IMG/VR virus record: IMGVR_UViG_3300046355_000105
Span: 1 to 58,083 of that record
Origin: a virus
Direction: 5' to 3' (one strand)
DNA length: 58,083 bases
The translations under genes were made by a program, and so were the position numbers. Below, piece by piece: positions 40,927 through 57,860 of the stretch. The notes below the pieces were generated by a model. That model ran no database searches. It saw only the letters and a program-made list of their open reading frames with translations, and was not told the DNA's origin. Within the stretch, counting starts at the first letter, position 1, and each line of letters starts with the position of its first letter.

Positions 40927-41162
40927 GTTTCTTCCAAAGTTAGTTCTGCAAGTTGTATCGTGATGTTGTGGTGGATGTTCTCAAGTATCTGTCGTCGTGA
41001 TGGTGGTGAGTCTGAGACCCAACCATCGTTGGCTATGTCCAATACCTTTATCCATCCATCACTAGAGCGCACCGCGATACGCATCTTGATGTCGAATGTG
41101 TGATGGTCTCGGCTAGCTTCGACGTGAACCCATTTTTCTTCTGGGTTATTTAGCATCGCCAT
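40923..41162 (-). CDS. Small protein of unknown function
   Basis: A 79-residue protein ending in VVSDSPPSRRQIL-like sequence (actually WVSDSPPSRRQILENIHHN). GGAGG lies before the ATG at 41162; an alternative start is 41156. It overlaps the DNA polymerase gene's end and the nuclease start. No recognised motif. Confidence 0.5.
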   Translation of the reverse strand: MAMLNNPEEKWVHVEASRDHHTFDIKMRIAVRSSDGWIKVLDIANDGWVSDSPPSRRQILENIHHNITIQLAELTLEET

Positions 41163-42984
41163 AGCTTCCTCCAACTCCAGTCTCACACGCAACAGGGATG
41201 CTGCGACACCACTTAGGTGTCATCGCAAGGCACTCTTCCATATACGCACGGGCTTCAACAAGTTCATCATCTCGCACTACACAGACAGCCTCGTCATGGA
41301 CGGACAGCTTCACTGGGTAGCGCTGGTTGATACGCGCAGTTTGCCACATAACGATCTGCATTGCGGCATGTTGCGATAAATTTTCTACAACTTTTGCACC
41401 GTGCAGATTTACCCGCATCTTGCCCATGGTGTACGTCCAGTTCTTGCCGTCATGCTCCAGCTCGTTATACATAACGCCCGGCTCGCCGGGGCGGCCAAAG
41501 CCATCCCACTGTGTCACGAACCAACCATTGACATCCACGTTTAGCATGGAGCAGCCGTTGGCGATATCTGGCAGGATTACTTTGTCGCAGCGCTTCCACA
41601 ACTCGACGACCTTGTAATGCACAGAGCGGTATAGGTCAACGATGGCGTATGCACGGTCGAGGTCAATCAGCTCCACGCCGGGGTCAGTGCGCTTGGCGAG
41701 ACGAACCATCTCTTGGAACCGTGCAGCGCCAGCGCCGTACTGCAAACCCAGCATCGCTGTCTTGCCCAAGAAACGCTCGGCCTTGTCTTTCTTCGTAATC
41801 TCACGGCCAAAGAGCTTAGACGCAAAGTCACAGTACAGGTCAACGCCGTTCTTCAACTTCTCGGTCACGTCGTCTTGGCCAGCCAGTGCCATCACTGTGC
41901 GGAGTTCAATGTTGGATGAGTCACCCACGAGAACGGTGTGGCCAGCAGGAGCCAGCAACGCATCGCGCAAGCCCGCTGAGGGGCCACGCGCAGGGATGTT
42001 TTGCCAGTTGATGGAGTTACCCCCAGAGTAGCGGCCAGTGGTCTTAGCGCCCCAGAAATTGAGGTACACGGGCAACGGGCCACGCTGTGCAGTTTCGAGG
42101 AACTTCAGTGCGCGGGTTTCTGCAATGGTCGTCTTGACGCCCAAGCGAGCCGCAACCAACGCCTGTACGTCTGCATCGTCGGACTCCAAGAGGTCGGTGA
42201 AGGCTTTGTCTGATTTGGCAAAAGCATAGGTTTCTTTATCTGGTCGTGCTTTGCTCGTCTTCATGGGCGGTGTGACACCAAGCTCCAGTAAACGGGCAGC
42301 GAATTTGTCGTTGGACATGATGATTTCGCGGGTGACTGTCGCGTCTTGCAACAGCTTCTCTTTGCGCACCAGCTCATCGTCATAGAGTTGTTTCATCTTG
42401 GCTTGGTCGCCCACCAGCATCGGCTCAGTGAACATGCGAATCGTCATGTCGATGAGACGCATAGCCAGTGGCGGTGTGAACGGGTCGAACTTCTTGCCCA
42501 GCTCTTTGCACAGCCATGTGTCGTGCTTGCAGTAGTCAGCGTACTCGGCTAATTCCATGGGATTAAAGTCCTCACGGCGTTTGCCAATCGCCTTTACAAC
42601 AGCAGTGCCCTTGTCGGGGAAAGCGTATTGCTTGGCCAAGTTGGCCAGTGAGTGATACTGCAAGAACGGCAACAGCATGCGGCCTTGGCCGAGGGTGTCC
42701 ATCCACAGCTTGGGCTTGATGCCACAGCGTTGCGTCAGGATGTAGCCGTCGAACAAAGTGTTGTGGCAGCGCACGGCTGAGTTCGCCCAGTCGTATGTGC
42801 CATGCAGCCAGCCAATCGTCTCAAGCTCTGAGCCACTGAACCACACAGCGTCTTCGTCATTCTTGATGACGGACACACCAATGATTTCAAAGCGGTCATC
42901 GTTGATGTACGCATCAGTCTGCATCTTCGACAGGGAGTAGTCCTTGTCGTAGTACGTCTCAAAGTCAACTGTTAGGATGTCCAT
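41146..42984 (-). CDS. DNA polymerase, family A
   Basis: A 612-residue replicative polymerase. The N-terminal 3'-5' exonuclease has VDFETYY (Asp7/Glu9) and DYCKHDTWL. The polymerase domain contains motif A GDSSNIELR (about 352-360), motif B FLGKTAMLGLQYG (about 400-412) and motif C VHDEA (about 560-564). Length is short but complete for phage family A enzymes. One copy of the repeat family (TAATTCCATGGGATTA on the + strand, 42550-42565) is inside the coding sequence, encoding NPMEL. Confidence 0.95.
   Translation of the reverse strand: MDILTVDFETYYDKDYSLSKMQTDAYINDDRFEIIGVSVIKNDEDAVWFSGSELETIGWLHGTYDWANSAVRCHNTLFDGYILTQRCGIKPKLWMDTLGQGRMLLPFLQYHSLANLAKQYAFPDKGTAVVKAIGKRREDFNPMELAEYADYCKHDTWLCKELGKKFDPFTPPLAMRLIDMTIRMFTEPMLVGDQAKMKQLYDDELVRKEKLLQDATVTREIIMSNDKFAARLLELGVTPPMKTSKARPDKETYAFAKSDKAFTDLLESDDADVQALVAARLGVKTTIAETRALKFLETAQRGPLPVYLNFWGAKTTGRYSGGNSINWQNIPARGPSAGLRDALLAPAGHTVLVGDSSNIELRTVMALAGQDDVTEKLKNGVDLYCDFASKLFGREITKKDKAERFLGKTAMLGLQYGAGAARFQEMVRLAKRTDPGVELIDLDRAYAIVDLYRSVHYKVVELWKRCDKVILPDIANGCSMLNVDVNGWFVTQWDGFGRPGEPGVMYNELEHDGKNWTYTMGKMRVNLHGAKVVENLSQHAAMQIVMWQTARINQRYPVKLSVHDEAVCVVRDDELVEARAYMEECLAMTPKWCRSIPVACETGVGGSYGDAK
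42550..42565. repeat. Palindrome family copy inside the polymerase gene
   Basis: TAATTCCATGGGATTA; the flanking 22 bases are identical to a copy at 46782-46797, which may mean transfer between the two sites rather than independent coding. Confidence 0.6.
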
Positions 42985-46634: not shown

Positions 46635-46808
46635 TCAGTCCTCATCATCTTCTGCCATAGCCATGTGGTCACGTATCAAGTCGAACTTGATGACATCCAA
46701 GATACCCAGCACAGTGGGCAACAACACAGCGTGTTCGTACTTGGCAATCACGTCCATGAGATCCTCGGTCATGCCAGCGGCTAATTCCATGGGATTAAGG
46801 TTTTTCAT
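46635..46808 (-). CDS. Small acidic protein
   Basis: A 57-residue protein (MKNLNPMELAAGMTEDLMDV and an acidic end AEDDED). GGAAG lies eight bases before ATG 46808. A palindrome copy overlaps codons 5-9. An alternative ATG at 46790 lies inside the palindrome, as in two other genes of this arm. The protein shares the NPMEL peptide with the polymerase because of a 22-base identical stretch. Confidence 0.45.
   Translation of the reverse strand: MKNLNPMELAAGMTEDLMDVIAKYEHAVLLPTVLGILDVIKFDLIRDHMAMAEDDED
46782..46797. repeat. Palindrome family copy (TAATTCCATGGGATTA)
   Basis: Inside or at the start of the small acidic gene; shares 22 identical bases with the polymerase copy. Confidence 0.6.
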
Positions 46809-46809
46809 A

Positions 46810-47004
46810 TCAGCACTTCCACAAGTAAACAGCCACTATGACCCACATGCACACAGCTACCCAGAAGAACAGTTTGTCCTGCCAGCGTTGCTCTGGTGGG
46901 AACCACCACTGCGCGTTCTCGATGTCGTCTTTGAAGGCGTCACGAGTTGTGCGTGGGAAGCAGCGTGTCGTGGGCCAGCCATAATTTTTATGATAGTTCG
47001 TCAT
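46810..47004 (-). CDS. Small membrane protein
   Basis: A 64-residue protein with a soluble N-terminus and one C-terminal span (KLFFWVAVCMWVIVAVYLW). Its stop is next to the following gene's start. Function unknown. Confidence 0.55.
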   Translation of the reverse strand: MTNYHKNYGWPTTRCFPRTTRDAFKDDIENAQWWFPPEQRWQDKLFFWVAVCMWVIVAVYLWKC

Positions 47005-47282
47005 GTGATTTTCCTGAACGTGATGGTGCCAATGATGTCACCACGGTGAACGATGTCGTATTCCTTGCCTTCCTTGGTCGCACCTGCACGTGCCATGTCA
47101 CTAAGCAACACAGTCATAGAGCGGCCAAGCGTTGACACGTACACCACAGCGGATTCTTCGTCGAGTGTCAACCACTCGTTGTCCTTGTCGATGTTTACGC
47201 CGAGCTCTTCAAAGCCGCGCACGAGCTTCGACTCGATACGCACAAGGCGGTTCAACAATTCTTTTTCGAGTTTATAAAGCAT
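47001..47282 (-). CDS. Protein of unknown function
   Basis: A 93-residue protein starting MLYKLEKELLNRLVRIESKL, followed by a strand-rich part (WLTLDEESAVVYVSTLG, DIIGTITFRKI). The ATG at 47282 is preferred because longer readings would overlap the upstream gene. About 97 bases separate it from the upstream metallopeptidase gene. Function unknown. Confidence 0.55.
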   Translation of the reverse strand: MLYKLEKELLNRLVRIESKLVRGFEELGVNIDKDNEWLTLDEESAVVYVSTLGRSMTVLLSDMARAGATKEGKEYDIVHRGDIIGTITFRKIT

Positions 47283-47379: not shown

Positions 47380-48525
47380 TTATAGTGGAACCTCGACACG
47401 TGTGCCGAATGGTTCGCGTGGATGGCTGTAGCCGATGTCAGCCCAGATCATAGGGAATGGTGGCTCTTCACATTCAGAGAGGTTGCCCTCCATGTCGGTG
47501 AAGAAAATCATTCCGCAGTAACGCTCGTCTTGTTTGGCGAAGTGCTCGAACACAGGTTGGAACCGTGTGCCACCGCCACCCTTGGGGCGCAGCTGCAATG
47601 GCTCGTCACGCTCGAAGCGCTCGGTGTGCGTCACAGACCAGTCGCAGTACACCACCTCGACGAACGCAGGGTTGAGGTCGTCAACGATGGCTTGCAGCTC
47701 GGCAGCAATCTGGTTGCACTCGTCGGGCCCCATGGAGCCCGATGTGTCGAAGCCGATGGCCAAGCCACCCAGTGCGTCAGAGCGCAGCGATGGCATGTAG
47801 AGACCAGAGCCAATGAATCGGCGTGATGGGCGCAGGTAGCTGTAGTCAGCGGCAGCGCTCTCAGTCATCATCGAGCGGGTCACGTCTTGCCAACGCACCT
47901 TGGATTCGCCGACATGCTCAAGCACGCGGTCGATGAGCGTGGAACCTTGGCCGCAGTCCTTGGCCATCTTGGCAGCGGCCACGATGGATGCTTCCATGTC
48001 AACACGTGTTGCATCGTCCTGTGCGTCCTCAAGGTCGCCCTTGCCGTCGAAGCCACCACCGTTGGCGTTGTCATCTTCGTCGCCGTCACCAGAGCCACCG
48101 CCACCATTCTGTTGCTGTTGCTGCTGTTGTTCTTTGAGTTTGTTGTAGACCTCTTCGGATGACATCTCTTCACGCACCCAGCTGAGATGCACGCCACCCT
48201 TGGGCAGCTGCCAGCCACGGCTCTTGATGTACGCGTTGATGAGCGCATCGTTGGCCACGTTCCAAATCTTGGGGTCGCGTCCCTCACGACGCCACATGTG
48301 CATCAGCACTACGTGACATGACTCGTGCAGCACGAGGCCGAACAGTTCTTCGTCTGTCAGCTTCTCGCAGAACGCTTCGTTGTATCGCACCCAGTTGCCG
48401 TTGGTGCCAGCAGTAGATACCCTGTCAGAGACCTCGCGCTTGACGCGGGTCATGACTGCGGCGATGAACGCTTCACGCAGTCCGAGCTTGCTGTATGCGA
48501 GGTCTAGCCTATCCATAAGTGCCAT
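47380..48525 (-). CDS. VWA/metallopeptidase-like protein (MoxR partner)
   Basis: A 381-residue protein. An N-terminal HEXXH-type metallopeptidase motif (VLHESCHVVLMH, His67/Glu68/His71) is followed by a Gln/Gly/Asp-rich linker with a poly-Gln run (133-140), and a VWA-like domain with DTSGSM (about 259-264) as in DUF2201-type proteins. It works with the MoxR AAA ATPase encoded just upstream. The ATG follows a CACTTATTTACT leader motif and GGAG. Confidence 0.85.
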   Translation of the reverse strand: MALMDRLDLAYSKLGLREAFIAAVMTRVKREVSDRVSTAGTNGNWVRYNEAFCEKLTDEELFGLVLHESCHVVLMHMWRREGRDPKIWNVANDALINAYIKSRGWQLPKGGVHLSWVREEMSSEEVYNKLKEQQQQQQQNGGGGSGDGDEDDNANGGGFDGKGDLEDAQDDATRVDMEASIVAAAKMAKDCGQGSTLIDRVLEHVGESKVRWQDVTRSMMTESAAADYSYLRPSRRFIGSGLYMPSLRSDALGGLAIGFDTSGSMGPDECNQIAAELQAIVDDLNPAFVEVVYCDWSVTHTERFERDEPLQLRPKGGGGTRFQPVFEHFAKQDERYCGMIFFTDMEGNLSECEEPPFPMIWADIGYSHPREPFGTRVEVPL

Positions 48526-48535
48526 GATTTTCTCC

Positions 48536-48547
48536 AGTAAATAAGTG
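48536..48547 (-). promoter_or_regulatory. Leader motif (CACTTATTTACT on the - strand)
   Basis: Located immediately upstream of the Shine-Dalgarno for the VWA gene. One of eight copies of a CACTTRTTYACT-like sequence in - strand leaders. Confidence 0.5.
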
Positions 48548-48549
48548 AA

Positions 48550-48825
48550 TCATTGTTCGAGAGCGTATATCGCCTCGACCCATAGTTTAGCATCGTCAAT
48601 GCTGTCGAGCCAGTGTTTCGTTGCAACAGGATGCCAGCTTATCTCTGCGTAAATTTTGCCGACCTGTCGCGTTAAATACCATGGCTCGATGTTGACGTGA
48701 GCGAAGCGGTAAGTCCGCATCTTCCCACGTGGAGCTGCTGCGTTGGGGTCAGGTAACTCTGCACGAGCTACCCACCCACCATCGCCATGCTCGTGCCACA
48801 CCAGTTGGTAGCCTGCTAATCCCAT
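48550..48825 (-). CDS. Small protein (paralogue of the next gene), start inside a palindrome
   Basis: A 91-residue protein (MGLAGYQLVWHEHGDGGWVA ... IDDAKLWVEAIYALE). The ATG lies inside TAATCCCATGGGATTA. Its C-terminal pattern (ID-x-AKL-[WY]-V-x3-[FY]-ALE) matches the neighbouring gene, so they arose by duplication. Function unknown. Confidence 0.6.
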   Translation of the reverse strand: MGLAGYQLVWHEHGDGGWVARAELPDPNAAAPRGKMRTYRFAHVNIEPWYLTRQVGKIYAEISWHPVATKHWLDSIDDAKLWVEAIYALEQ

Positions 48826-48832
48826 GGGATTA
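48817..48832. repeat. Perfect palindrome TAATCCCATGGGATTA at a stop/start junction
   Basis: The only fully symmetrical copy. On the - strand its first three bases are the TAA stop of the upstream gene (48830-48832) and its centre is the ATG of the downstream gene (48825-48823). Confidence 0.85.
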
Positions 48833-49126
48833 CTCCGCGCCGTGCTCAAGAGCAAACAGCGATGTTACGTACAGCTTGGCCATGTCGATGTCGGGGAACT
48901 CACGAATCTCGTCGAACGAGTTGCGAGTCACCACCCAACCACCATGCTCGTCAAGAAGACCGAGCGCGTTGTAAGCAGGGCGTATGTGTGCAAAGACTGT
49001 GGCCACATCGTAGGCGTGACCCTTGCGATATTTAGCAGTCTTCAGCACACTCGCCACAACCACACCGTTGCCATCGCGCTGCCAGTCGAGACGGGCTTTG
49101 CCTGTGTAGGGGTGTGTGATGGCCAT
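48830..49126 (-). CDS. Small protein (paralogue of the previous gene)
   Basis: A 98-residue protein (ending IDMAKLYVTSLFALEHGAE). Shares its C-terminal pattern with the 48550-48825 gene. Its TAA stop is the first part of the palindrome. Close to the MoxR gene. Function unknown. Confidence 0.6.
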   Translation of the reverse strand: MAITHPYTGKARLDWQRDGNGVVVASVLKTAKYRKGHAYDVATVFAHIRPAYNALGLLDEHGGWVVTRNSFDEIREFPDIDMAKLYVTSLFALEHGAE

Positions 49127-49129
49127 AGG

Positions 49130-50137
49130 TTACTTCATCGAGAACGCAGCTTGGTTGGCGATTGCCCACTTGCTGAACGCTGGCGACTTAGTGATTGACT
49201 TGTCACGCTTGTGTGCGAGCTTGATGGTCAGGGTCTGCACTTCGCCGGGCATCTTCTCCAAGAACTTCCATGCCTTGTCGAAGTTGGTAGCGTCGAGGCG
49301 TGTGGCCAAGCCCATCGCAACGCAGTAACGCACGTTCATCTCTTTGGGCACGGCTACGTCCTTGCCTTGCAGGATGTCTTCGATGCGTGGCATCGACTCC
49401 CACACACGCAGGTGCGTCTCGAAAATCATGGCAGCTTCTTCACCCACGTCACCCTTGATGAGCTCGACACGGTCTTGCACAGGCAGGTCGATGTCAACCA
49501 CGTGAGACACAGCGAACCATGAACGTGGTGAGGGGAATGGCTTGATGTCACCAGTGGGCTCGAACTTGTGCAACAAGTCAGGGCGGTCTTGCAACAGCGA
49601 CAGAATCTCTGGGCGGATGCCCTTGGTGATGGCGTGCGAAGTGAAGTCGTCAATGGTGGTGCTCACGTCAATGTCACACATGCGGTTCTGCAGTGGGGCA
49701 GCGAGGTTAAACGTCACGCCACGGTCAGTCTTGCGGTTGCCAGCGGCGATCACCATCCATGTGTCAGGGATGCCGAAGTCTTCTGGTGTCAGGCACAGCT
49801 GGTACGCAGCGGCCTGCACTGAGGGTGGTGCTGAGGTAATCTCGTCGAGGAACAAGATGCCAGCGCCATCGGCGGGTAAGAAGTCAGGGCGTGCCCAGTG
49901 TGTGCGGCCTTCGATGACGTGTGGAATACCGCGCAGGTCGGTGGGCTCCATCTGTGCGAGGCGAAGGTCAATGACACCTTTCCAGTTTGCGACGTGCTCC
50001 GACAAGAGCTTTGACGTTTGGAAGACAACCTCGGACTTGCCGATGCCCGATGGGCCACGCAGTAATGTGGTGCGACGACGAGTGTTGTCGTTGAGGTAAC
50101 GCTTGACGAGGATAGGGGTGATGTGTGCGATACGCAT
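49130..50137 (-). CDS. MoxR-type AAA+ ATPase
   Basis: A 335-residue ATPase: Walker A GPSGIGKS (28-35), Walker B ILFLDEI (about 92-98), AAGNRKTDRG and LAAPLQNR (sensor/arginine finger region). MoxR proteins with VWA partners act as chaperones or modify other complexes. Start preceded by CACTTATTCACT and AAAGGA. The pair with the VWA gene suggests a two-part machine. Confidence 0.9.
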   Translation of the reverse strand: MRIAHITPILVKRYLNDNTRRRTTLLRGPSGIGKSEVVFQTSKLLSEHVANWKGVIDLRLAQMEPTDLRGIPHVIEGRTHWARPDFLPADGAGILFLDEITSAPPSVQAAAYQLCLTPEDFGIPDTWMVIAAGNRKTDRGVTFNLAAPLQNRMCDIDVSTTIDDFTSHAITKGIRPEILSLLQDRPDLLHKFEPTGDIKPFPSPRSWFAVSHVVDIDLPVQDRVELIKGDVGEEAAMIFETHLRVWESMPRIEDILQGKDVAVPKEMNVRYCVAMGLATRLDATNFDKAWKFLEKMPGEVQTLTIKLAHKRDKSITKSPAFSKWAIANQAAFSMK

Positions 50138-50152
50138 GATGATTTCCTTTGG

Positions 50153-50164
50153 AGTGAATAAGTG
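50153..50164 (-). promoter_or_regulatory. Leader motif (CACTTATTCACT)
   Basis: Upstream of the Shine-Dalgarno for the MoxR ATPase. Confidence 0.5.
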
Positions 50165-50195
50165 AGGTGCCAGTGAGCCGCACTGGCAACGGTGT

Positions 50196-50211
50196 TAATC
50201 CCGTGGGATTA
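50196..50211. repeat. Palindrome copy TAATCCCGTGGGATTA
   Basis: Supplies the TAA stop (50209-50211) of the 72-residue upstream gene. Confidence 0.8.
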
Positions 50212-50427
50212 GGGGAGTGGTGTTGGGTCTTTAGGCTCGACTTCTTTATTAGAGAGGTCTTCAGCTGCGGCAGCAGCTTGTGCAGCTTTCTCTTGCTCTT
50301 GTGCTTGCAACACGATGTCGTCGATGATGGGACGAACCAAGCCGTGAGGGCCAGTGTTTAGCAGATTGAGCAAAGCGTTGACACCATTGAGGTCAAGTTT
50401 GAGGTCAAGTTTGATGTTGAATTCCAT
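50209..50427 (-). CDS. Small protein of unknown function
   Basis: A 72-residue protein (MEFNIKLDLKLDLNGVNALL, a strongly patterned N-terminus, and an Ala-rich C-terminal half). The TAA is provided by the palindrome. Start preceded by AGGA and a weak leader motif at 50438-50449. Confidence 0.6.
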   Translation of the reverse strand: MEFNIKLDLKLDLNGVNALLNLLNTGPHGLVRPIIDDIVLQAQEQEKAAQAAAAAEDLSNKEVEPKDPTPLP

Positions 50428-50437
50428 CGTGGTTCCT

Positions 50438-50449
50438 AGTAGTTAAGTG
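50438..50449 (-). promoter_or_regulatory. Leader motif, degenerate (CACTTAACTACT)
   Basis: Immediately upstream of the Shine-Dalgarno of the 50209-50427 gene. Confidence 0.4.
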
Positions 50450-50459
50450 AAGGGTTATT

Positions 50460-50702
50460 TTACTCGTCAACCGAGTTGAGGGCAAGCGAAGCATAGTCTG
50501 TGACAGAGAAGGTACGCAGTGACACACCACCGTCTCGCGACTGTGGCTTCATACGCTTGTACCCTGACGCTGCCCAGTCGTACTGCACTGGTTCACCGCA
50601 GCGCAACAACTTAAATGCTTCGACGGCTTTGTCTGTGGGCAATATGATTGTTGTGCTGCCGAACTCAAGCAAAGCACGGGGTTCGTACTTTTCTTCGGCC
50701 AT
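50460..50702 (-). CDS. Small protein of unknown function
   Basis: An 80-residue protein (MAEEKYEPRALLEFGSTTII, then a DYASLALNSV end). ATG 50702 lies beside the upstream gene's TGA. Function unknown. Confidence 0.55.
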   Translation of the reverse strand: MAEEKYEPRALLEFGSTTIILPTDKAVEAFKLLRCGEPVQYDWAASGYKRMKPQSRDGGVSLRTFSVTDYASLALNSVDE

Positions 50703-50703
50703 G

Positions 50704-51585
50704 TCAGCTCTCCAGCATTGCGTTGATAGATGCCAGCAATGCAGCGGACTGCACGTTGACTTCGCGGCGCTTCTCTGGGTCGTCACGCAACTGTTGAGGG
50801 TGCGGTGTTGTGTCTGCTACGGACTTGGCCATGGCCAGCACGTTGTCGGGAAGAATCTCGGCGAACGCATGAAGCAAACTGATTTCCTCCATGATGTTGT
50901 CCACCACTGAATCGCGGAAGATGGGTGGCTTGACTTCGCTGTTGCCAGTCTTCTTGTTGACGACTTCGCGGTCGGTCTTGCCAGTCACTTCGTTGAGCTT
51001 CTGCACGACATCCTTGAGGCGCTCCAGTGGGGCACGCAGCATGTTGTTCATCGACTCTTTGGTGGCAGCCTCGACTTCGGCACGCAGTGCGTCCATCTCT
51101 TCTGATTGCAACTGCACACGGAAGTCACCAGAGTCAGTGACTGGGCGGTAGTTGACACGGAAGCGGAAGTCGCTCTTGAGGTCAGTCAGGTCAGGGTACG
51201 CGTTGGCATCGAACAGCTCGCCTTGTGAGGCAGCGGCCTGTGTCATCACGTTGCTCCAGTTGTTGAGGAACGCAGTGACGCACTGGTCGAACTCGACTTG
51301 GTATTTGCCGATGCGCTCGGTGAACTCCATGAACTTCGATGTTGGCAGCAGATACTCGCCACGTGTCCACATGTATGTGGTGCTCTCAATGTAGGCACGG
51401 GCACTTGACTCGACTGTGAGGATTGGTTGCACCAGTGACTTGGGGTACAGGTCTTTGCGGAACTGCCCTGCGCCGTGTGCATTGTTTGCGTCCTCGGCGT
51501 CACGTGTGGCCTTGTCGTCTTTCTTGGTCATCTGTGGCTTATTCACGCTAAGTGAAACCAACAGCGCGTGGTTTTTGATACTCAT
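50704..51585 (-). CDS. Protein of unknown function near the MoxR operon
   Basis: A 293-residue helical protein (SLVQPILTVESSARAYIE; FTERIGKYQVEFDQCVTAFL; QLQSEEMDALRAEVEAAT). Its size and position resemble DUF3150-like proteins that occur with MoxR/VWA genes, but I cannot confirm this. The palindrome lies directly before its Shine-Dalgarno. Confidence 0.5.
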   Translation of the reverse strand: MSIKNHALLVSLSVNKPQMTKKDDKATRDAEDANNAHGAGQFRKDLYPKSLVQPILTVESSARAYIESTTYMWTRGEYLLPTSKFMEFTERIGKYQVEFDQCVTAFLNNWSNVMTQAAASQGELFDANAYPDLTDLKSDFRFRVNYRPVTDSGDFRVQLQSEEMDALRAEVEAATKESMNNMLRAPLERLKDVVQKLNEVTGKTDREVVNKKTGNSEVKPPIFRDSVVDNIMEEISLLHAFAEILPDNVLAMAKSVADTTPHPQQLRDDPEKRREVNVQSAALLASINAMLES

Positions 51586-51595
51586 AATTTGCTCC

Positions 51596-51611
51596 TAATC
51601 CCGTGGGATTA
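51596..51611. repeat. Palindrome copy TAATCCCGTGGGATTA
   Basis: Supplies the TAA stop (51609-51611) of the upstream gene; GGAG of the next gene follows directly. Confidence 0.85.
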
Positions 51612-52106
51612 CTTGGTTGATGATGTGGTTGTTGTGCCCTTTGGCCAGCCCAGTTTGCTCAGGTCAGCGACCACGTTGGCCAGTGCTGGCAGGTTTGCGG
51701 CCTTGGCATCTGGCTTGGGGTAATACTTCTCGAACTCTGGCAAGCGTGTCATCAGCTGCTTGTATGTGCTGCACGATTCGATGGCACCCTTGAGTGAACG
51801 GCGTGCGGCCACGACTGCCTCGTCCTCGGCTTTGTACTTCTTGGTCAGCTCGTCAATGACTACCTCTTTCACGTCACCCACGATGATGTTGCGTGAATCC
51901 CAGTTGCCGTCATAGATGACATCACCAAGGTGGTAAGTACGCAGGGCGCTTGGGCAAGACTTGTAGAGCTTGCGTGCTTCGGGTGACATCGCCTTGACGA
52001 CAGCCGCCTGCAATTCCTCCTTGCGTTTCTTTTTGTCTGGGGTGGGCAAATCGTGCATGATGGCTCGGACGATGGCTTCTTTGTCGTATTTGTTGATTCG
52101 TGACAT
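51609..52106 (-). CDS. Conserved protein of unknown function
   Basis: A 165-residue protein with YDKEAIVRAIMHDLPTPDKK near the N-terminus. The pattern recalls phage proteins of the Nmad5 class (putative nucleotide modification-associated), but I am not sure. Start preceded by AGGAGA and the leader motif. Confidence 0.5.
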   Translation of the reverse strand: MSRINKYDKEAIVRAIMHDLPTPDKKKRKEELQAAVVKAMSPEARKLYKSCPSALRTYHLGDVIYDGNWDSRNIIVGDVKEVVIDELTKKYKAEDEAVVAARRSLKGAIESCSTYKQLMTRLPEFEKYYPKPDAKAANLPALANVVADLSKLGWPKGTTTTSSTK

Positions 52107-52119
52107 GGTGGTTCTCCTG

Positions 52120-52131
52120 AGTGAATAAGTG
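52120..52131 (-). promoter_or_regulatory. Leader motif (CACTTATTCACT)
   Basis: Upstream of the 51609-52106 gene's Shine-Dalgarno. Confidence 0.5.
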
Positions 52132-52132
52132 G

Positions 52133-52531
52133 TTAGATTGATTTGCGCAGCACAGAAATAACTGCGTCTGCAAACTCGTGGTTGTCGGCATCGACTTTGT
52201 TGTCATCGGCGTTGGTCTCTATCTCGTCAATCTTGGTGTCAAGGTCAGACACTTCTGACTCAACTTTGTCCAGCCTGCGAACGATGTCATTGAGCGTGTC
52301 GTCATAGTGGGCTTCGAGGATGCCCTGCACAGCTTCCTGTGTGTTTTTGTCTTCTGTGAGCAGCGAGTGCAGCGGCAGAGACAAGTTGTTGGGGTCTAGG
52401 GCAATCATCCCCATGCCTTCGGCTTGAGTCTGGTGCTTGAGTTCCGCAACAATGAGCGGTACGAGTTGCTTGGCCAAGTCGTGCATGAAAGCGTTGAACA
52501 ATGGCGCGGTCGGTACAGGTGTCTGTTCCAT
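52133..52531 (-). CDS. Coiled-coil protein of unknown function
   Basis: A 132-residue protein with a coiled-coil C-terminal half (IVRRLDKVESEVSDLDTKID). First gene after a strong early promoter. Start preceded by GGAG and the leader motif CACTTGTTTACT. Function unknown. Confidence 0.55.
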   Translation of the reverse strand: MEQTPVPTAPLFNAFMHDLAKQLVPLIVAELKHQTQAEGMGMIALDPNNLSLPLHSLLTEDKNTQEAVQGILEAHYDDTLNDIVRRLDKVESEVSDLDTKIDEIETNADDNKVDADNHEFADAVISVLRKSI

Positions 52532-52544
52532 GATTTCTCCAATA

Positions 52545-52556
52545 AGTAAACAAGTG
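52545..52556 (-). promoter_or_regulatory. Leader motif (CACTTGTTTACT)
   Basis: Upstream of the 52133-52531 gene's Shine-Dalgarno, just after a palindrome copy. Confidence 0.5.
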
Positions 52557-52561
52557 GTGGT

Positions 52562-52577
52562 TAATCCCGTGGGATTA
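52562..52577. repeat. Palindrome copy TAATCCCGTGGGATTA, in the leader
   Basis: Lies about +33 to +48 relative to the predicted start of the 52617-52645 promoter, in the 5' untranslated region. Confidence 0.85.
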
Positions 52578-52616
52578 GGGTCATGCGCTGAGTGGTTTTC
52601 TCAGTTCATGGTTAGT

Positions 52617-52645
52617 ATTGTAGCAGATTACTTGCTACGTGTCAA
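52617..52645 (-). promoter_or_regulatory. Strong early promoter (- strand)
   Basis: TTGACA (52645-52640), 17-nt spacer, TACAAT (52622-52617) on the - strand, overlapping the end of the upstream gene. Predicted start about 52610. A palindrome copy lies about 35-50 bases downstream. Same architecture as the promoter at 55703-55731. Confidence 0.8.
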
Positions 52646-52948
52646 GCCAAGCACTTCATCGACGATGGACTGGTCAAGTTGCTGGCGCAGTTGTTCTGCA
52701 GCAGCGTCGATTTGGGCTTGGTACGAAGGCGAAACGTATTGTGTTGTACGAATCGGCGTTGGCTGTGTCATGTTGTCATACCATCGTTTATTGCGCACCA
52801 GCGCACGCGTTGTTAGGCGGTCAACCTCAAGGTAGTGGTCAGGCATGGGAGCGCCGTCATAGAGCAGAATGAGCTCCGCTCTTAATGATAGTAACTCTTG
52901 CGCTTGACGGGCGCGTCGCGCCCTGATTCGGTTCTGTTTCTTACTCAT
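52628..52948 (-). CDS. Basic protein of unknown function
   Basis: A 106-residue protein with Arg-rich N-terminus (KKQNRIRARRARQAQELLS) and a helical rest. Its C-terminal end overlaps the early promoter. Coupled to its upstream neighbour by ATGA. Function unknown. Confidence 0.55.
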   Translation of the reverse strand: MSKKQNRIRARRARQAQELLSLRAELILLYDGAPMPDHYLEVDRLTTRALVRNKRWYDNMTQPTPIRTTQYVSPSYQAQIDAAAEQLRQQLDQSIVDEVLGLTRSK

Positions 52949-53547
52949 AGCTCCAGCTCCAGTTGGTTCTTGTGCAGCTCGCGGCGGATGTCGTGCTCAA
53001 CCTGCACAATCTGGTTGTTGATGACTTCATCGCGCCACTTGGTGTTGTCCTCGTCGCTGTCGAGTATCGTGCTCTCATACCCGCCACAGTACGAGCGGAA
53101 GTCCTCGTCGATTTCGTCATCTTCATTCAGCGGGGCCACGCCCACGGTCAGCCAGCACCAGTCGTCGTGGTACCAGCCCGTGATGTAGGCGAAGTCCTTC
53201 TCGACAACCTCCATGCAGCGGTCAGGCTCGACGCCCCACTCAGTACGCGCCTTGTGCAGCGAACCCAGCACGTCGTAGTACAGACCGCTGTCGTAGCGGT
53301 TTGATGGTGGCTGAATCTGGCGCATCATGCGCAGACGTGTCTCTTCTTCGAGCTCAGGCTCGTTGTCCAGCAGGTGTTGCTCCAGCTGTTCCTCGTCGGT
53401 GGGGTTCCAGTCGAGGCGCTCGGTGACACCGTAGCAGTCTGTCTCTTCTAGCGGGCTGCCCATGTCGTGGTCGTAGTACCAGCGCACGTTGTACTTCTTG
53501 CCAGACTTGTGCGTGTAGGTCTCTTCGTGGTGGATGTCGTGACTCAT
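52945..53547 (-). CDS. Acidic protein of unknown function
   Basis: A 200-residue protein rich in Asp and Glu (EEEQLEQHLLDNEPELEEET; NEDDEIDEDFRSYC), with His-rich N-terminus. Coupled to its neighbours by ATGA overlaps. An acidic DNA-mimic-type role is conceivable but untested. Confidence 0.5.
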   Translation of the reverse strand: MSHDIHHEETYTHKSGKKYNVRWYYDHDMGSPLEETDCYGVTERLDWNPTDEEQLEQHLLDNEPELEEETRLRMMRQIQPPSNRYDSGLYYDVLGSLHKARTEWGVEPDRCMEVVEKDFAYITGWYHDDWCWLTVGVAPLNEDDEIDEDFRSYCGGYESTILDSDEDNTKWRDEVINNQIVQVEHDIRRELHKNQLELEL

Positions 53548-53732
53548 ATCGTTCTCCCTTGCAATGAACTTACTCGTGCTTTGATGATGACGGCCTGTGT
53601 GTATAGCTTGGTCGCCTGCTTGAACTGTTCCTCGTCGATGTCGCCACGCTCGAACACTGGGTCGAGCAACTCCATCAGGTCAGTCGCTTGCTTGAGCGCC
53701 TTCTGGCGCTGGGCTTCGGTCATTGTTTTCAT
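53544..53732 (-). CDS. Small helical protein
   Basis: A 62-residue helical protein (MKTMTEAQRQKALKQATDLM). Start is preceded by AGGA that abuts a palindrome copy. Function unknown. Confidence 0.5.
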   Translation of the reverse strand: MKTMTEAQRQKALKQATDLMELLDPVFERGDIDEEQFKQATKLYTQAVIIKARVSSLQGRTI

Positions 53733-53742
53733 GGTGGTTCCT

Positions 53743-53758
53743 TAATCCCGTGGGATTA
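53743..53758. repeat. Palindrome copy TAATCCCGTGGGATTA
   Basis: Supplies the TAA stop (53756-53758) of the upstream gene; the next gene's AGGA begins right after it. Confidence 0.85.
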
Positions 53759-54052
53759 GCTGTGTTGGTCGAGTAGCCAAGCGATGTGCTTGATCTTGTT
53801 GGCAGGTGTTGCCCGCACGTAGATGGCCTTGTCGCAGTCGGGTATGTCCTCGCAGTTGACGTTGGCGTACCCGAACGGGTTGTGCTGCCCCACGCATCCG
53901 ATGCAGTCTTGCGACACCACTGGCGCGATTGGCACCGCGCGGAATGGCTGCTTACCAGTGTTAGGTATGACAACGCACGGCTGTGCTTTTCCTGTCGAGT
54001 GGACACCAGCGGGCAGGTATTTCAGTCGTAGGCTTTTAGTAATCTTTGGCAT
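53756..54052 (-). CDS. Protein with a cysteine cluster
   Basis: A 98-residue protein with QDCIGCVGQHNPF, NCEDIPDCD cysteines that could bind zinc or iron. C-terminal region helical. TAA stop is in a palindrome. Function unknown. Confidence 0.55.
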   Translation of the reverse strand: MPKITKSLRLKYLPAGVHSTGKAQPCVVIPNTGKQPFRAVPIAPVVSQDCIGCVGQHNPFGYANVNCEDIPDCDKAIYVRATPANKIKHIAWLLDQHS

Positions 54053-54266
54053 GGTTGATTCCTTCCAATGTCATTTTCGCAAGAGTCGCTGTGTCTACCC
54101 ATAGGTTGCCAGTTCCACATGTGGCGTTGCATCGTGGGTTGAGCGGGTCGTACTCGTGGCAATAGGCGCATATCGGTATGGTTGTGTCCTCGCCTGATTG
54201 CCTACGCCACACACGCACCGCACTAATGCGAACCTTGTGCTGGTCGTGGTGAGTAACTTCCCTCAT
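54036..54266 (-). CDS. Small zinc-binding protein
   Basis: A 76-residue protein with CAYCHEYDPLNPRCNATCG (four Cys and a His) that probably binds zinc. It overlaps the previous and next genes. Function unknown. Confidence 0.55.
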   Translation of the reverse strand: MREVTHHDQHKVRISAVRVWRRQSGEDTTIPICAYCHEYDPLNPRCNATCGTGNLWVDTATLAKMTLEGINHAKDY

Positions 54267-54514
54267 CTCTCCATCCTCTCAAGTTGTCGGGCTGCCCACC
54301 ACGCGATGCCGTCATTCTGTGCCTCGGCGAACGTGTCGCGGATGCGGCTGTGGTATTCCTTGAGCCCGTTTTCTGAAAGAGCCACGGCGAATCTCCACTG
54401 AGACCCGCTGGCCGTGTGTCGTTGAATCCAGCAGCTGGCGTACTCACCATCGACGAACATATCGTGGAACTCGCCCTGTCTGTTCATGTTGGCGTTGAAT
54501 TTCCACTCAATCAC
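54263..54514 (-). CDS. Small protein of unknown function
   Basis: An 83-residue protein starting at GTG 54514 with GGAGG six bases upstream. It contains WIQRHTASGSQWRFAVALS and a C-terminal helix with AQNDGIAWWAARQLER. Overlaps both neighbours by a few bases. Confidence 0.5.
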   Translation of the reverse strand: MIEWKFNANMNRQGEFHDMFVDGEYASCWIQRHTASGSQWRFAVALSENGLKEYHSRIRDTFAEAQNDGIAWWAARQLERMER

Positions 54515-54716
54515 GGTGTGCCTCCAGCTTCTCACGGAACTTGATGAAGCGGTTGTGCGCCTCCACTACCTGAGTGCGTGCGTCTTCGTTGGTGATGAAA
54601 GTCATCAGCATCATCTTGGCCACACGTGCCTCGTCTTTGAATTTAAAGGCTGCACCAGTGGCAATGGCTGCCCAGATGAACAGGATGAACTCGGTGGTTG
54701 TGATATTTAATTCCAT
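54507..54716 (-). CDS. Small membrane protein, start inside a palindrome
   Basis: A 69-residue protein with one membrane span (about 9-25: EFILFIWAAIATGAAF) and a helical tail. Its ATG lies inside a palindrome copy (54708-54723). Function unknown. Confidence 0.55.
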   Translation of the reverse strand: MELNITTTEFILFIWAAIATGAAFKFKDEARVAKMMLMTFITNEDARTQVVEAHNRFIKFREKLEAHRD

Positions 54717-54723
54717 GGGATTA
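54708..54723. repeat. Palindrome copy TAATTCCATGGGATTA at a start codon
   Basis: Contains the ATG of the downstream membrane protein gene (54714-54716). Confidence 0.8.
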
Positions 54724-54728
54724 GTCTT

Positions 54729-54959
54729 TCAGTATGTGTTGTCAAGGTATGAATAGTCGTTGGGCTTACGCACCACTGCGACCCATCGTTTCGGCTCGGC
54801 GGTCGGCTGCACCGTCGGCGTTTTGTTGGCCTCATCGACAAGCAGGGTGAACACGAACAGGTCTTCGCGGGATAGCGTGAACAGGTTCTCGGTGGCGGAT
54901 GTCCAGTGCCATAGGCACCAAGCGAAGCGAGGTTTGGCAGGGCCAAGGCGGAATCTCAT
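54729..54959 (-). CDS. Protein of unknown function
   Basis: A 76-residue protein with Trp-rich start (RFAWCLWHWTS) and a C-terminal half of the type RWVAVVRKPNDYSYLD. Overlaps the upstream gene by ATGA. Function unknown. Confidence 0.5.
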   Translation of the reverse strand: MRFRLGPAKPRFAWCLWHWTSATENLFTLSREDLFVFTLLVDEANKTPTVQPTAEPKRWVAVVRKPNDYSYLDNTY

Positions 54960-55606
54960 ACTGCCACCTCCATCAAAGCCAAGTGGCCGCGCACTGCTGC
55001 ACGCACCTCGTCGATGTCTGGGTTGGCCAGCGTTGTGGTCAGGAAACCGATGGTGGTCTGCAACTCGTACAGGGCGGGTGCATCTACCGCGTCGAGCGGG
55101 ATGTTGTGGGTGAAGTTGCGCATGGCCACGTTGGCACGGTGCAGGCAGGATGTCAGGGTACCTCGTCGTGTGGCTTCGCGCAGTCTGGGCAAGTTCACGT
55201 CCTTCAAGGTGTGATTGATGAGGCCGATGGTGTTGAGCACGTGGTCGGTGTTGTGGCGGTCGAGGTTGTTGTCAATGCACGGCGTGATGAAGATGTCGTC
55301 GCTGTTGTAGCCGTAGACCTTGCGGAAACCTGACAAGAAATAGCCCTTGTGGCGCTCTGTGCTGTTGGAGTATCGGGCTGGTGTGAGCCACAGCTCGTTG
55401 CGCTTGGTGTGGACATTGCGCATGATGCGAGCAACCACGGTGCGATAGCTGATGCCAGTCTGCACTAGGTAGAAGGATTTGCCTTGGCCAGCATGGTGTG
55501 CATCGTTGTCTGGGTTTTGGACTCTGAGCGTGCTCATACGTGAGCCAGTTGCATTGGTTGCTAGGTTGCCGAAAGCGACGCCAACGTCGTGATGTGATTT
55601 AGCCAT
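54956..55606 (-). CDS. First gene of a strong early operon, unknown function
   Basis: A 216-residue basic protein (MAKSHHDVGVAFGNLATNAT; FITPCIDNNLDRHNTDHVLN; RREATRRGTLTSCLHRANV-type helices). GGAG lies six bases before ATG 55606, and the leader motif is above it. Because it is read first from a strong promoter, it may help in host takeover; this is inference. Confidence 0.55.
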   Translation of the reverse strand: MAKSHHDVGVAFGNLATNATGSRMSTLRVQNPDNDAHHAGQGKSFYLVQTGISYRTVVARIMRNVHTKRNELWLTPARYSNSTERHKGYFLSGFRKVYGYNSDDIFITPCIDNNLDRHNTDHVLNTIGLINHTLKDVNLPRLREATRRGTLTSCLHRANVAMRNFTHNIPLDAVDAPALYELQTTIGFLTTTLANPDIDEVRAAVRGHLALMEVAV

Positions 55607-55620
55607 GGTGAACTCCAAGA

Positions 55621-55632
55621 AGTAAATAAGTG
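55621..55632 (-). promoter_or_regulatory. Leader motif (CACTTATTTACT)
   Basis: Just upstream of the Shine-Dalgarno of the 54956-55606 gene. Confidence 0.5.
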
Positions 55633-55644
55633 AGGGAGAGTGCC

Positions 55645-55660
55645 TAATCCCGTGGGATTA
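55645..55660. repeat. Palindrome copy TAATCCCGTGGGATTA, in the leader
   Basis: Lies about +36 to +51 downstream of the predicted start at about 55696, matching the position of the copy at 52562-52577 relative to its promoter. Confidence 0.85.
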
Positions 55661-55702: not shown

Positions 55703-55731
55703 ATTGTAACGTATTACTCGTAGCTTGTCAA
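55703..55731 (-). promoter_or_regulatory. Strong early promoter (- strand)
   Basis: TTGACA (55731-55726), 17-nt spacer, TACAAT (55708-55703). Predicted start about 55696. Its spacer shares AGTAAT with the 52617-52645 promoter. It drives the long early operon. Confidence 0.85.
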
Positions 55732-55748: not shown

Positions 55749-56249
55749 TTATACGTTGAAACCCAGCTTTTCGAGCTGTGCCCGTGCGCGGTCTGCGTTG
55801 ATTTTCTGCTCAGCCAGCGTTGGATTGTCTGGGTCTGCTGGGTTGTACTCAGGCAACTCGTCCAGATTGAGTGACGCGCCCTCAAGTTCAGCGGTCTTTG
55901 CATCATGCAACTTGCTACGCACTACAGCCAACGGCATCCCATACGAATCAGCAATGCTGGTTAGCAACTCGCCACCCTTGTGCCTGTGTAGTATCTCTTC
56001 GCGCCATGCGTTTGGCTCTGTAGGAATAGGTACACGGATTACTTGTGGTTTGTTTGGTTGGGCTTGTGGTGTTTCTTTCTGCACACTTACTCGCAGCTCT
56101 GCTAGTGGGTCAACTGTGATGCCAAGCTCGACTGCTTTGGTCTTGAAATGTGCTCGGATGTACGACGACATAGTGTGACCTGCCGACTCGCAAATGGCCT
56201 GTATTAGTTTGTGTTCGGTCTCATCGACGCGGAAGTTGACTATTTTCAT
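55749..56249 (-). CDS. Putative RHH/HTH DNA-binding regulator
   Basis: A 166-residue protein. The N-terminal region NFRVDETEHKLIQAICESAG then MSSYIRAHF matches the ribbon-helix-helix fold used by small repressors; residues ~95-118 (LLTSIADSYGMPLAVVRSKL) resemble a helix-turn-helix. The gene has its own promoter overlapped by inverted repeats that may be its operator. It is the best candidate to bind the genome's repeats. The regulator role is inferred. Confidence 0.6.
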   Translation of the reverse strand: MKIVNFRVDETEHKLIQAICESAGHTMSSYIRAHFKTKAVELGITVDPLAELRVSVQKETPQAQPNKPQVIRVPIPTEPNAWREEILHRHKGGELLTSIADSYGMPLAVVRSKLHDAKTAELEGASLNLDELPEYNPADPDNPTLAEQKINADRARAQLEKLGFNV

Positions 56250-56267
56250 GATTTTTCCCTCGAAAAG

Positions 56268-56279
56268 TGTAAAGCCTAA
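56268..56279. promoter_or_regulatory. Operator candidate, left arm (TGTAAAGCCTAA)
   Basis: Forms a 12-bp inverted repeat with TTAGGCTTTACA at 56320-56331; overlaps the predicted start of the RHH/HTH gene. A degenerate copy GTAACGCCTAAA occurs at 56291-56302. Confidence 0.55.
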
Positions 56280-56307
56280 TTATATACCACGTAACGCCTA
56301 AATAAAG
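56279..56307 (-). promoter_or_regulatory. Promoter of the RHH/HTH regulator
   Basis: TATAAT on the - strand at 56284-56279 in the sequence TGGTATATAAT, the same 11-bp string as in the promoter at 57722-57751. The -35 region (CTTTAT at 56307-56302) is poor. Expected start about 56272 lies inside the operator. Confidence 0.5.
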
Positions 56308-56319
56308 TAAATATCTTCT

Positions 56320-56331
56320 TTAGGCTTTACA
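56320..56331. promoter_or_regulatory. Operator candidate, right arm (TTAGGCTTTACA)
   Basis: Partner of 56268-56279; a partial copy TTTGCTTTACA follows at 56332-56342. Confidence 0.55.
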
Positions 56332-56385
56332 TTTGCTTTACAAATTTTTTGGTAATTTGCTTAATTTTTGGGCACACCTTGCCGT

Positions 56386-56777
56386 TTTAGCAGCTAAATC
56401 CCACGGGATTAGTTGGGCTGGCGCTATCTTTAGCAGGGCCGAACCTCTGGGAACCCGCATGGATACTGGGTTTAGCAGATTAGCAGCAAATTTAGGCGAG
56501 AGAGAGGTTTTTATGGGGGAAGGTTTGGCTCGGCCAAACGATAATGAAAGGCTGTGTGTCTCAACTATTTCCTCTCTTATTTTTATCTGCTAAAGCTATT
56601 AATACTATAACCCTTGTTTTTGCTGTGCTGGCCCCCGTAAGTCGTTGATTTTAAAGGCTTTATTATCTCACTACATTACTCGCCATTAAAAGTTATAGCA
56701 GCAAAAAGTGGCCCTAGGTTTTATGCGGAAATCCTTATCTAAAGTCGCGCAAACCCGCATGAATAGGACTTTAGCAG
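56386..56777. repeat. Cluster of TTTAGCAG repeats
   Basis: TTTAGCAG at 56386, 56429, 56471, 56770 (ATTAGCAG at 56479, TATAGCAG at 56694) and its reverse complement CTGCTAAA at 56587. The first copy is within the odd palindrome TTTAGCAGCTAAA (56386-56398). Confidence 0.65.
56396..56411. repeat. Palindrome copy AAATCCCACGGGATTA
   Basis: Opposite central orientation (AC) and one mismatch; directly after a TTTAGCAG repeat. Confidence 0.75.
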
Positions 56778-56829
56778 CTCTACTTGGCTCTACAGCTGGG
56801 CTCGCGGGGTGGTTGCATTTTCGTCGCCC

Positions 56830-56895
56830 TTACGTCTTTCTTACGTCGCTAATCCCGTGGGATTACGTTGCTTTTACATCGGTCACGATTACGTC
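56830..56895. repeat. TTACGTC iterons
   Basis: TTACGTC at 56830, 56841 and 56889 and TTACGTT at 56863, at 11-, 22- and 26-base spacings, close to whole helical turns. A palindrome copy (56850-56865) overlaps them. Confidence 0.55.
56850..56865. repeat. Palindrome copy TAATCCCGTGGGATTA
   Basis: Exact copy in non-coding DNA, between TTACGTC repeats. Confidence 0.85.
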
Positions 56896-56900
56896 GCGGG

Positions 56901-56912
56901 CATGATAGTAGT
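56901..56912. repeat. CATGATAGTAGT repeat 1
   Basis: One of four exact 12-bp copies, plus one with a single mismatch, all in the last 1.2 kb of the window. Confidence 0.75.
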
Positions 56913-56950
56913 GTGTTCTCATGGCGCGGCCATTCGCGCACTGCGCAGCG

Positions 56951-56962
56951 CATGATAGTAGT
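56951..56962. repeat. CATGATAGTAGT repeat 2
   Basis: Exactly 50 bases from repeat 1, both preceded by GCG-rich sequence. Confidence 0.75.
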
Positions 56963-56978
56963 CAGGTATTGCGGACGC

Positions 56979-57016: not shown

Positions 57017-57643
57017 TTAGGCTGCTGCCTTGCCATGGATGCGTACACCCTTGGCCGCTTTGGTGAGAATGTACCCTTTTTCAATTAGGCGGGCTTCGAT
57101 TTTGGGGCGGTAAACTGCATCCCCCAAGTATTCCGGCAAGTTATCAAGCCACGCCGTGAACGCGTCAATTTCTTGCATGTCTGGCGCGGGTGTCGCTGCT
57201 GGGGCTTTGGCCTTTGGTGTCACTGTCTTAGGTGACACTTTACGCGCCACGCCGTTTGCTTCGCGCACCTGCTTTGCAGCGTCCCGCATTGCGTGCTTTG
57301 GCATTTTCACTGCGTCCGCTGCTTTAATGTGCTTTTCGGTTTTCTTGCCGTCCTTGCCTACTGCATCCACTGTGACGGGCGTTTGTGCTGCTGCGTGCAG
57401 TGTCAGTGCATCCACAAAAAGACTTTTTACATTGTGGCCCGCTGCCTTGAAATCGTCCGCATACAGTGAAACAACTGCAGCGATACGGCCAGAAAATGGG
57501 GTTTCAGGGTTTAATTGTTTTGCAGCTTTGGCCGCTGCGTCCTTGCAGCTTTGCAGCATTGTGCCCGCTGCTTCGCCCGCTTTGCCGATGAGTGCGCCCA
57601 CGGCTGCGTCACGTGAACCGATGATTGTGGATGATTTTGTCAT
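57017..57643 (-). CDS. Early Ala/Lys-rich protein of unknown function
   Basis: A 208-residue protein, helical and basic in its middle, with an Ala/Pro/Lys-rich linker (KVSPKTVTPKAKAPAATPAP) and a C-terminal domain (FTAWLDNLPEYLGDAVYRPK). It has its own promoter, a leader motif and a terminator, so it is a single-gene early unit. Possible DNA- or host-protein-binding factor; no family recognised. Confidence 0.6.
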   Translation of the reverse strand: MTKSSTIIGSRDAAVGALIGKAGEAAGTMLQSCKDAAAKAAKQLNPETPFSGRIAAVVSLYADDFKAAGHNVKSLFVDALTLHAAAQTPVTVDAVGKDGKKTEKHIKAADAVKMPKHAMRDAAKQVREANGVARKVSPKTVTPKAKAPAATPAPDMQEIDAFTAWLDNLPEYLGDAVYRPKIEARLIEKGYILTKAAKGVRIHGKAAA

Positions 57644-57669: not shown

Positions 57670-57711
57670 ACTGATGAACCGATCAGCGCGGATGACTGCG
57701 TTTTCTTGCTG

Positions 57712-57725
57712 CCATGGGATTATTA
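57712..57725. repeat. Palindrome half-site (CCATGGGATTATTA)
   Basis: Overlaps the -10 and start of the promoter at 57722-57751; could allow control at initiation. Confidence 0.5.
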
Positions 57726-57751
57726 TATACCATATCTGGCGGGTATGTCCA
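57722..57751 (-). promoter_or_regulatory. Early promoter for the 57017-57643 gene
   Basis: TGGACA (57751-57746), 18-nt spacer, TATAAT (57727-57722) within TGGTATATAAT. Expected start about 57715. A palindrome copy (57760-57775) lies just upstream and a half-site covers the -10. Confidence 0.75.
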
Positions 57752-57759
57752 CAATTTAT

Positions 57760-57775
57760 TAATCCCACGGGATTT
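57760..57775. repeat. Palindrome copy TAATCCCACGGGATTT
   Basis: Upstream of the -35 of the 57722-57751 promoter; opposite central orientation. Confidence 0.7.
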
Positions 57776-57778
57776 TCG

Positions 57779-57790
57779 CATGATAGTAGT
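57779..57790. repeat. CATGATAGTAGT repeat 3
   Basis: 57 bases from repeat 4. Confidence 0.75.
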
Positions 57791-57835
57791 TGAGGCTTGG
57801 CGCAGGCACTCGCGCACTGGGGCCAACCAAGCAGC

Positions 57836-57847
57836 CATGATAGTAGT
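57836..57847. repeat. CATGATAGTAGT repeat 4
   Basis: Just before the terminator of the 30-residue gene. Confidence 0.75.
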
Positions 57848-57860
57848 GAGGCATGGCCAT

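Follow-up and report, generated by a model that had tools for sequence, protein, structure and literature searches.

The 58,083-base viral contig analysed here (IMG/VR record IMGVR_UViG_3300046355_000105, referred to as the window over its whole length) comes from an uncultured podovirus-like phage and carries repeated copies of a 16-letter palindrome, TAATCCC[RY]GGGATTA, which is probably a DNA operator with copies throughout the early transcription unit. Its reader is most likely a dimeric DNA-binding protein that the phage itself encodes. The late arm of the window runs rightward and encodes terminase, portal, capsid and internal virion proteins. The early arm runs leftward and encodes DNA polymerase A, an SNF2 helicase, an AAA ATPase and a DUF2201 metallopeptidase/VWA protein. 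A total of 12 palindrome copies with 0-1 mismatch were found between 42,550 and 57,775, all of them in the early arm. Allowing up to 3 mismatches gave 13 matches in the window compared to 0.27 in dinucleotide shuffles, and the first 33 kb remained free of the palindrome even at this setting.

The palindrome was found to be the property of one phage family, whose members are uncultured aquatic phages with approximately 10 nearly invariant copies each. A protein search for relatives gave 80 loci. The palindrome was present in all close loci (some 50, L005-L053, ATPase identity of 74-94%) and missing from almost all of the remaining ones, where the ATPase was 36-40% identical. In a scan of 2.9 million viral contigs, nearly all loci among the matches listed encoded genes of the same phage family, and among these matches the palindrome held down to approximately 60% ATPase and 47% terminase identity. 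Among 13 long records, the sites occupied one early-arm stretch in those with listed positions. When copies with up to 3 mismatches were counted, 346 of 438 were exact. A search of 85k bacterial and archaeal species produced 98 matching stretches, scattered and with one match each, and no multi-copy regulon, while a terminase search of these genomes showed no prophage copies. The nearest cultured relatives were the Rhizobium phage RHph_TM3_14A and its sisters (43% identity for the capsid, 33-34% for the polymerase). Pseudomonas phage Rollin was also considered as a carrier but no repeated palindrome was found there, and no paper containing the palindrome sequence turned up in a literature search.

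Comparison of gene families in 24 genomes showed that the palindrome is anchored upstream of core genes while the upstream neighbours change. It stood in front of families f3 (17/17), f10 (15/15), f12 (20/24), f15 (19/23) and f17 (16/23), the upstream neighbours of which varied among 5 to 12 families. When the upstream neighbour had changed, the palindrome was kept in 73% of comparisons compared to a baseline of 19%, and on the 3' side in 57% compared to 28%. Where one neighbouring gene was different, identity was 0.94 across the palindrome and 0.27-0.28 in the flanks. The palindrome was thus almost unchanged in close and more distant relatives with unalignable flanks, in agreement with the initial annotation of this DNA, which had proposed that the element is maintained at gene borders.

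The initial annotation was drawn to five palindromes that supply stop and start codons at gene junctions. All five were present, at 48817-48832, 50196-50211, 51596-51611, 53743-53758 and 54708-54723, the last with one mismatch and the others exact. Genes 48830-49126, 50209-50427, 51609-52106 and 53756-54052 (minus strand) end precisely on the TAA of the palindrome, and genes 48550-48825 and 54507-54716 start with its ATG. At 48817-48832, a perfect dyad, both the TAA and the next ATG came from the palindrome as had been described, with a gap of four bases between them (TAA TCCC ATG) instead of the three reported. The same ATG use was seen in L005 and L041 for this copy and in L005 for 54708-54723. 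A Shine-Dalgarno sequence directly followed the repeat at 51596 (AGGAG, gene 50704-51585) and at 53743 (AAGGA, gene 53544-53732), also as described, and the 50196-50211 copy lies upstream of the AAA ATPase gene 49130-50137. Further copies that had not been named start at 42550, 46782, 55645, 56396, 56850 and 57760, with a half-like copy at 57707 and another copy, 52562, inside the span cited. The two genes flanking the 48817 palindrome (48550-48825 and 48830-49126) both belong to family f16 and look like a duplication split by the palindrome; this pair was found in the window, L005 and L041 and not in most relatives.

Comparison with chance separated the two kinds of overlap. Exact TAA stops occurred at 4 of the 12 sites in the window, while 0.09 were expected for 10 sites (p < 5e-5) when these were placed at random 20,000 times within junctions or non-coding DNA. 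For starts, 2 were observed compared to 0.37 expected at random (p = 0.05) and 1.28 expected given the junction (p = 0.37), so the start overlap is real yet not above chance. Start-supplying clusters numbered five family-wide, with an AT centre in 5/5. For the whole family, genes were called with a home-made codon-score caller, by which some starts will be wrong, and 410 sites were reduced to 149 context clusters, 144 with full context. The palindrome TAA was exactly the stop of the upstream gene (offset 0) in 48 of the 144; in the others the stop was 1-30 bases upstream (14), further upstream (34) or downstream (2), 18 lay inside a gene and 28 had no nearby gene end. Genes that reached the palindrome were in stop phase (phase 0) in 50 of 68 cases, where one third was expected (p = 1.6e-11, an optimistic value as clusters share ancestry). 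For this reason, the use of the TAA by 27 of 51 upstream gene families is the stronger argument. Up to five different upstream families ended on the TAA before one core gene (51596 palindrome).

Copies within genes were nearly always in one phase (AAT CCC RYG GGA TTA, read as NPxGL), with 17 compared to 1 in the other open phase, and this bias runs against codon usage, which favours the other phase about 4:1. Two such copies with one mismatch occur in the window, both read as NPMEL. The copy at 42550-42565 is inside the DNA polymerase A gene (41146-42984), in the same place in several relatives, and the copy at 46782-46797 is near the start of the small gene 46635-46808. Several of the in-gene copies in the window and relatives may be start-codon miscalls.

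A strong association with early promoters supported the operator suggested by the initial annotation. Promoters were scored with a simple sigma-70 consensus in the 24 genomes. Of the 42 early-strand promoters with a score ≥18.7, 39 were near a palindrome (4.0 expected); on the opposite strand, none of the 6 promoters that passed a threshold of 17 was near one. All 15 genomes with f10 had a TTGACA-17-TATAAT-like promoter, and the palindrome began at roughly +32 to +46. In the window, this arrangement was found for gene 52133-52531, with an exact palindrome in its 5' leader (52562-52577) at about +33 of the promoter TTGACA-17-TACAAT at 52617-52645 (minus strand). Similarly, the leader of gene 54956-55618 carries an exact copy (55645-55660) at about +36 of the promoter TTGACA-17-TACAAT at 55703-55731 (minus strand). 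For f12 (5/5), f39 (3/3) and most f3, the palindrome started at about +32 to +57; f3 had a promoter-linked palindrome in 11/11 with one outlier at +72, and similar spacing, mostly +32 to +60, was seen at individual promoters of several further families. The first large early gene, 57017-57643 (minus strand, 208 aa), is arranged differently in the window and its relatives. Its conserved promoter, TGGACA-18-TATAAT at 57722-57751 (minus strand), has the palindrome TAATCCCACGGGATTT (57760-57775, one mismatch) a few bases upstream of the -35, adjoining a TGATAGTAGT repeat, and a half-conserved copy TGCTGCCATGGGATTA (57707-57722) overlaps the -10. The remaining two copies are exact in the non-coding region at 56850-56865 and with one mismatch at 56396-56411, upstream of gene 55749-56249.

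An upstream promoter was found for 1 of 76 palindromes that overlap a stop and for 71% of those with the stop at least 40 bases upstream, which separates the sites into a promoter-linked and a promoter-less class. The stop-overlapping, promoter-less copies resemble the stoperators of mycobacteriophages. In addition, the sites were spaced more evenly than expected from a random choice of junctions (mean coefficient of variation (CV) of 0.48 compared to 0.76, p below 0.05 in 14 of the 19 genomes tested) and recurred about every 1 kb.

Overall, we infer that the operator copies would act from three kinds of position. Some copies lie a short way past strong sigma-70 early promoters and start at about +33 to +55, the copy at the first early promoter precedes its -35, and others occupy gene junctions that have no promoter. 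A bound dimer would block early promoters or elongating RNA polymerase and early expression would be turned down. At the promoters it may form a roadblock immediately beyond the initiation complex, and at the other sites a stoperator-like block. The stop overlap would then follow from a TAA that is kept for another reason and acts as a sink for gene ends: the conserved junction TAA would be a permanent stop codon on which the drifting 3' ends of upstream genes settle, and the several families that end on it before one core gene are consistent with this. The palindrome would thereby show how, in a compact genome, many unrelated genes can come to share a fixed operator as their stop codon. Several results weigh against a repressor operator. 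No palindrome-binding protein was identified. The integrase model PF00589 had no match in the 13 long records (serine integrases were not searched) and no conserved CI-like HTH_3 gene was found, so there is no sign of lysogeny that would explain a repressor. The consensus is also far more invariant than that of cluster A stoperators, the promoters are consensus scores and not mapped transcripts, and the sites within coding sequences are not explained by a purely junctional role.

Other functions were weighed for the same sites. The initial annotation had proposed a recombination or gene-shuffling boundary. The palindromes would then be short homologies for cassette exchange between phages, and the sites do mark gene junctions where gene turnover is rapid and unrelated genes end exactly on them. 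However, gene-order breaks in the 24 genomes were not more common there (0.705 per palindrome junction compared to 0.733 per plain junction in the palindrome-bearing region, and 0.64 compared to 0.56 when pooled). Homology neither resumed nor ended at the palindrome, with flank identity at background on both sides, and together with the anchoring this is what a maintained site predicts and not a recombination joint. As shuffling also fails to predict the link to promoters, the regular spacing or the copies inside genes, we regard it as very unlikely. A function in RNA, as a leader or gene-end hairpin for antitermination (nut/put-like), processing or translation coupling, would suit most copies, which lie in transcribed DNA either around +35 of a promoter or immediately ahead of a ribosome-binding site. 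A weak fold of the 16-mer (-3.9 to -4.9 kcal/mol) is in line with this. The aligned leaders of the ATPase gene served as a control, since a hairpin about 10 bases downstream of the palindrome covaries in 5 of 7 pairs while the palindrome arms are invariant and do not covary. A single compensatory pair change was found among all copies, and the recurrent one-sided variant TAATCCCATGGAATTA is tolerated although it abolishes the hairpin (-0.6 kcal/mol). Pairing maintained by compensatory changes, as in nut/put-like or terminator-like elements, was therefore absent, and it is the DNA sequence that is conserved. At the first early promoter, the conserved copy lies ahead of the -35, which also argues against an RNA element, and such an element is unlikely. 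The palindrome is a clear test case for separating DNA-site constraint from RNA structure. The control hairpin itself (GCCAGTG-CGGCT-CACTGGC, window 50169-50187, minus strand) has a conserved CGGYT loop and lies between the palindrome and the ATPase ribosome-binding site.

Two further explanations share with the operator a protein that binds DNA. Architectural, partition or replication sites (parS-/KorB-like), at which a protein loads at approximately kilobase intervals and organises or silences the genome, would account for a near-invariant 16-bp palindrome with quasi-regular spacing and for copies both near and far from promoters, as in the KorB O_B operators (PMC11790492). The nearest cultured phages have an analogous palindrome at 0.9-kb spacing. 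On the other hand, ParB_N (PF02195) had no match in the 13 family records while 11 of 14 control genomes matched, no sites fall outside the early arm in the listed records, and the tight +33 to +55 promoter spacing is left unexplained. This explanation appears rather unlikely, at much the same level as the RNA element. Capture of the binding sites of a host transcription factor would fit the host-type sigma-70 promoters and the lack of a conserved helix-turn-helix (HTH) protein found in the phage. The single bacterial and archaeal matches did not form a multi-copy regulon, although the true hosts may be unsampled. The absence of such a regulon and the restriction to one phage family favour a phage-encoded reader, and a host factor is accordingly improbable.

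A search for the protein that reads the palindrome gave a weak candidate, the product of gene 57017-57643. It is conserved together with the sites wherever family members cover the region, opens the early arm and carries invariant basic residues, and was not found in cultured phages. Its AlphaFold model (pLDDT 80) consists of helices and a beta hairpin. These seemed to resemble a winged helix, but Foldseek returned no PDB match and only the protein's own family in BFVD. Two other genes were rejected: the ribbon-helix-helix (RHH) gene 55749-56249, which was present in only two relative loci (one of them L085) and so is not conserved with the sites, and the conserved gene 47001-47282 (93 aa), whose model shows no HTH-like arrangement and matched nothing in the PDB. 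The site is so invariant that its reader should be easily fished out.

Rhizobium phage RHph_TM3_14A carries a different repeat, GTTACC-N5-6-GGTAAC, with 48 copies (≤1 mismatch) in 46 kb (record positions 15000-60889) while shuffles gave 0-1. These copies were found in both arms, 34 of them within genes, at an even spacing with a mean of 0.92 kb (CV 0.51 compared to 0.97), and a limited literature search found no description of the repeat. A broader proposal is that phages in which no lysogeny genes are detectable rely on an invariant palindromic address of their own, repeated at quasi-regular intervals of about 1 kb, placed after nearly every strong early promoter and read by a protein that silences and organises early DNA, while related phages such as RHph_TM3_14A keep the same layout with a different address. 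This remains speculative and we consider it doubtful.

Other features were observed in the early arm. The AAA ATPase, the DUF2201 metallopeptidase/VWA protein and a weak DUF3150 match at 47380-51585 are among the most conserved early genes. Many early genes in the window and relatives share a leader sequence, ACTTRTTYACT, that immediately precedes GGAG and the start codon (window 48536-48550, 50153-50167, 52120-52134 and 55621-55635), which is perhaps a translation enhancer. The repeat CATGATAGTAGT (ACTACTATCATG on the early strand) was found at 56896-56913, 56951-56972, 57779-57800 and 57836-57857, adjoining palindromes and coming after terminator-like hairpins, and in most relatives ACTACTATCA also precedes the first early promoter. 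These repeats are possibly rightward promoters or another protein site. Finally, a non-coding stretch at 56250-56850 with repeated TTTAGCAG / CTGCTAAA, spotted by eye, is a possible replication origin.

By the features tested, the palindrome is not a SAS, SPBRE, KorB or cluster A stoperator system. The SAS/ESAS of cluster K mycobacteriophages are repeated elements kept with certain gene families just upstream of starts, with an asymmetric sequence (GGGATAGGAGCCC) that contains the Shine-Dalgarno and a proposed role in translation (PMC3203893). In contrast, the element here is palindromic with the ribosome-binding site outside, as start offsets are mostly +25 and beyond with a separate GGAG. 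The SPbeta repeated element (SPBRE) is also a repeated intergenic or promoter element of a phage, a 15-bp motif of the prophage SPbeta bound by MrpR, which has a tyrosine-recombinase fold (PMC10516654). Its single master repressor was identified long after the element. The lack of a PF00589 match differs from this system, although a very diverged recombinase fold could escape a sequence model. The O_B operators of plasmid RK2, read by the ParB-family CTPase KorB, are likewise short repeated sites that are promoter-proximal and promoter-distal and silence transcription (PMC11790492), but their sequence is different and no ParB_N match was found here.

Stoperators of cluster A mycobacteriophages, bound by repressors such as L5 Rep, are many short sites, some at promoters and most not, at which the bound repressor blocks elongation (PMC6550527, PMC9283540). 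Each genome likewise has numerous palindrome copies at gene junctions, and the majority of these lack a promoter. However, stoperators are asymmetric 13-bp sites in one orientation to transcription, while the palindrome is 16 bp long and shows an orientation in its central pair only (AC 58 compared to GT 29 on the coding strand). The stoperator consensus drifts with phage and repressor, while that of the palindrome is unchanged in relatives whose ATPase identity is down to about 60%. Cluster A phages are also temperate, with an integrase or parABS, for which PF00589 and PF02195 had no match here. The palindrome system would thus work like stoperators while departing from them in asymmetry, drifting consensus and integration genes, and it points to stoperator-like distributed control in phages without a sign of lysogeny.

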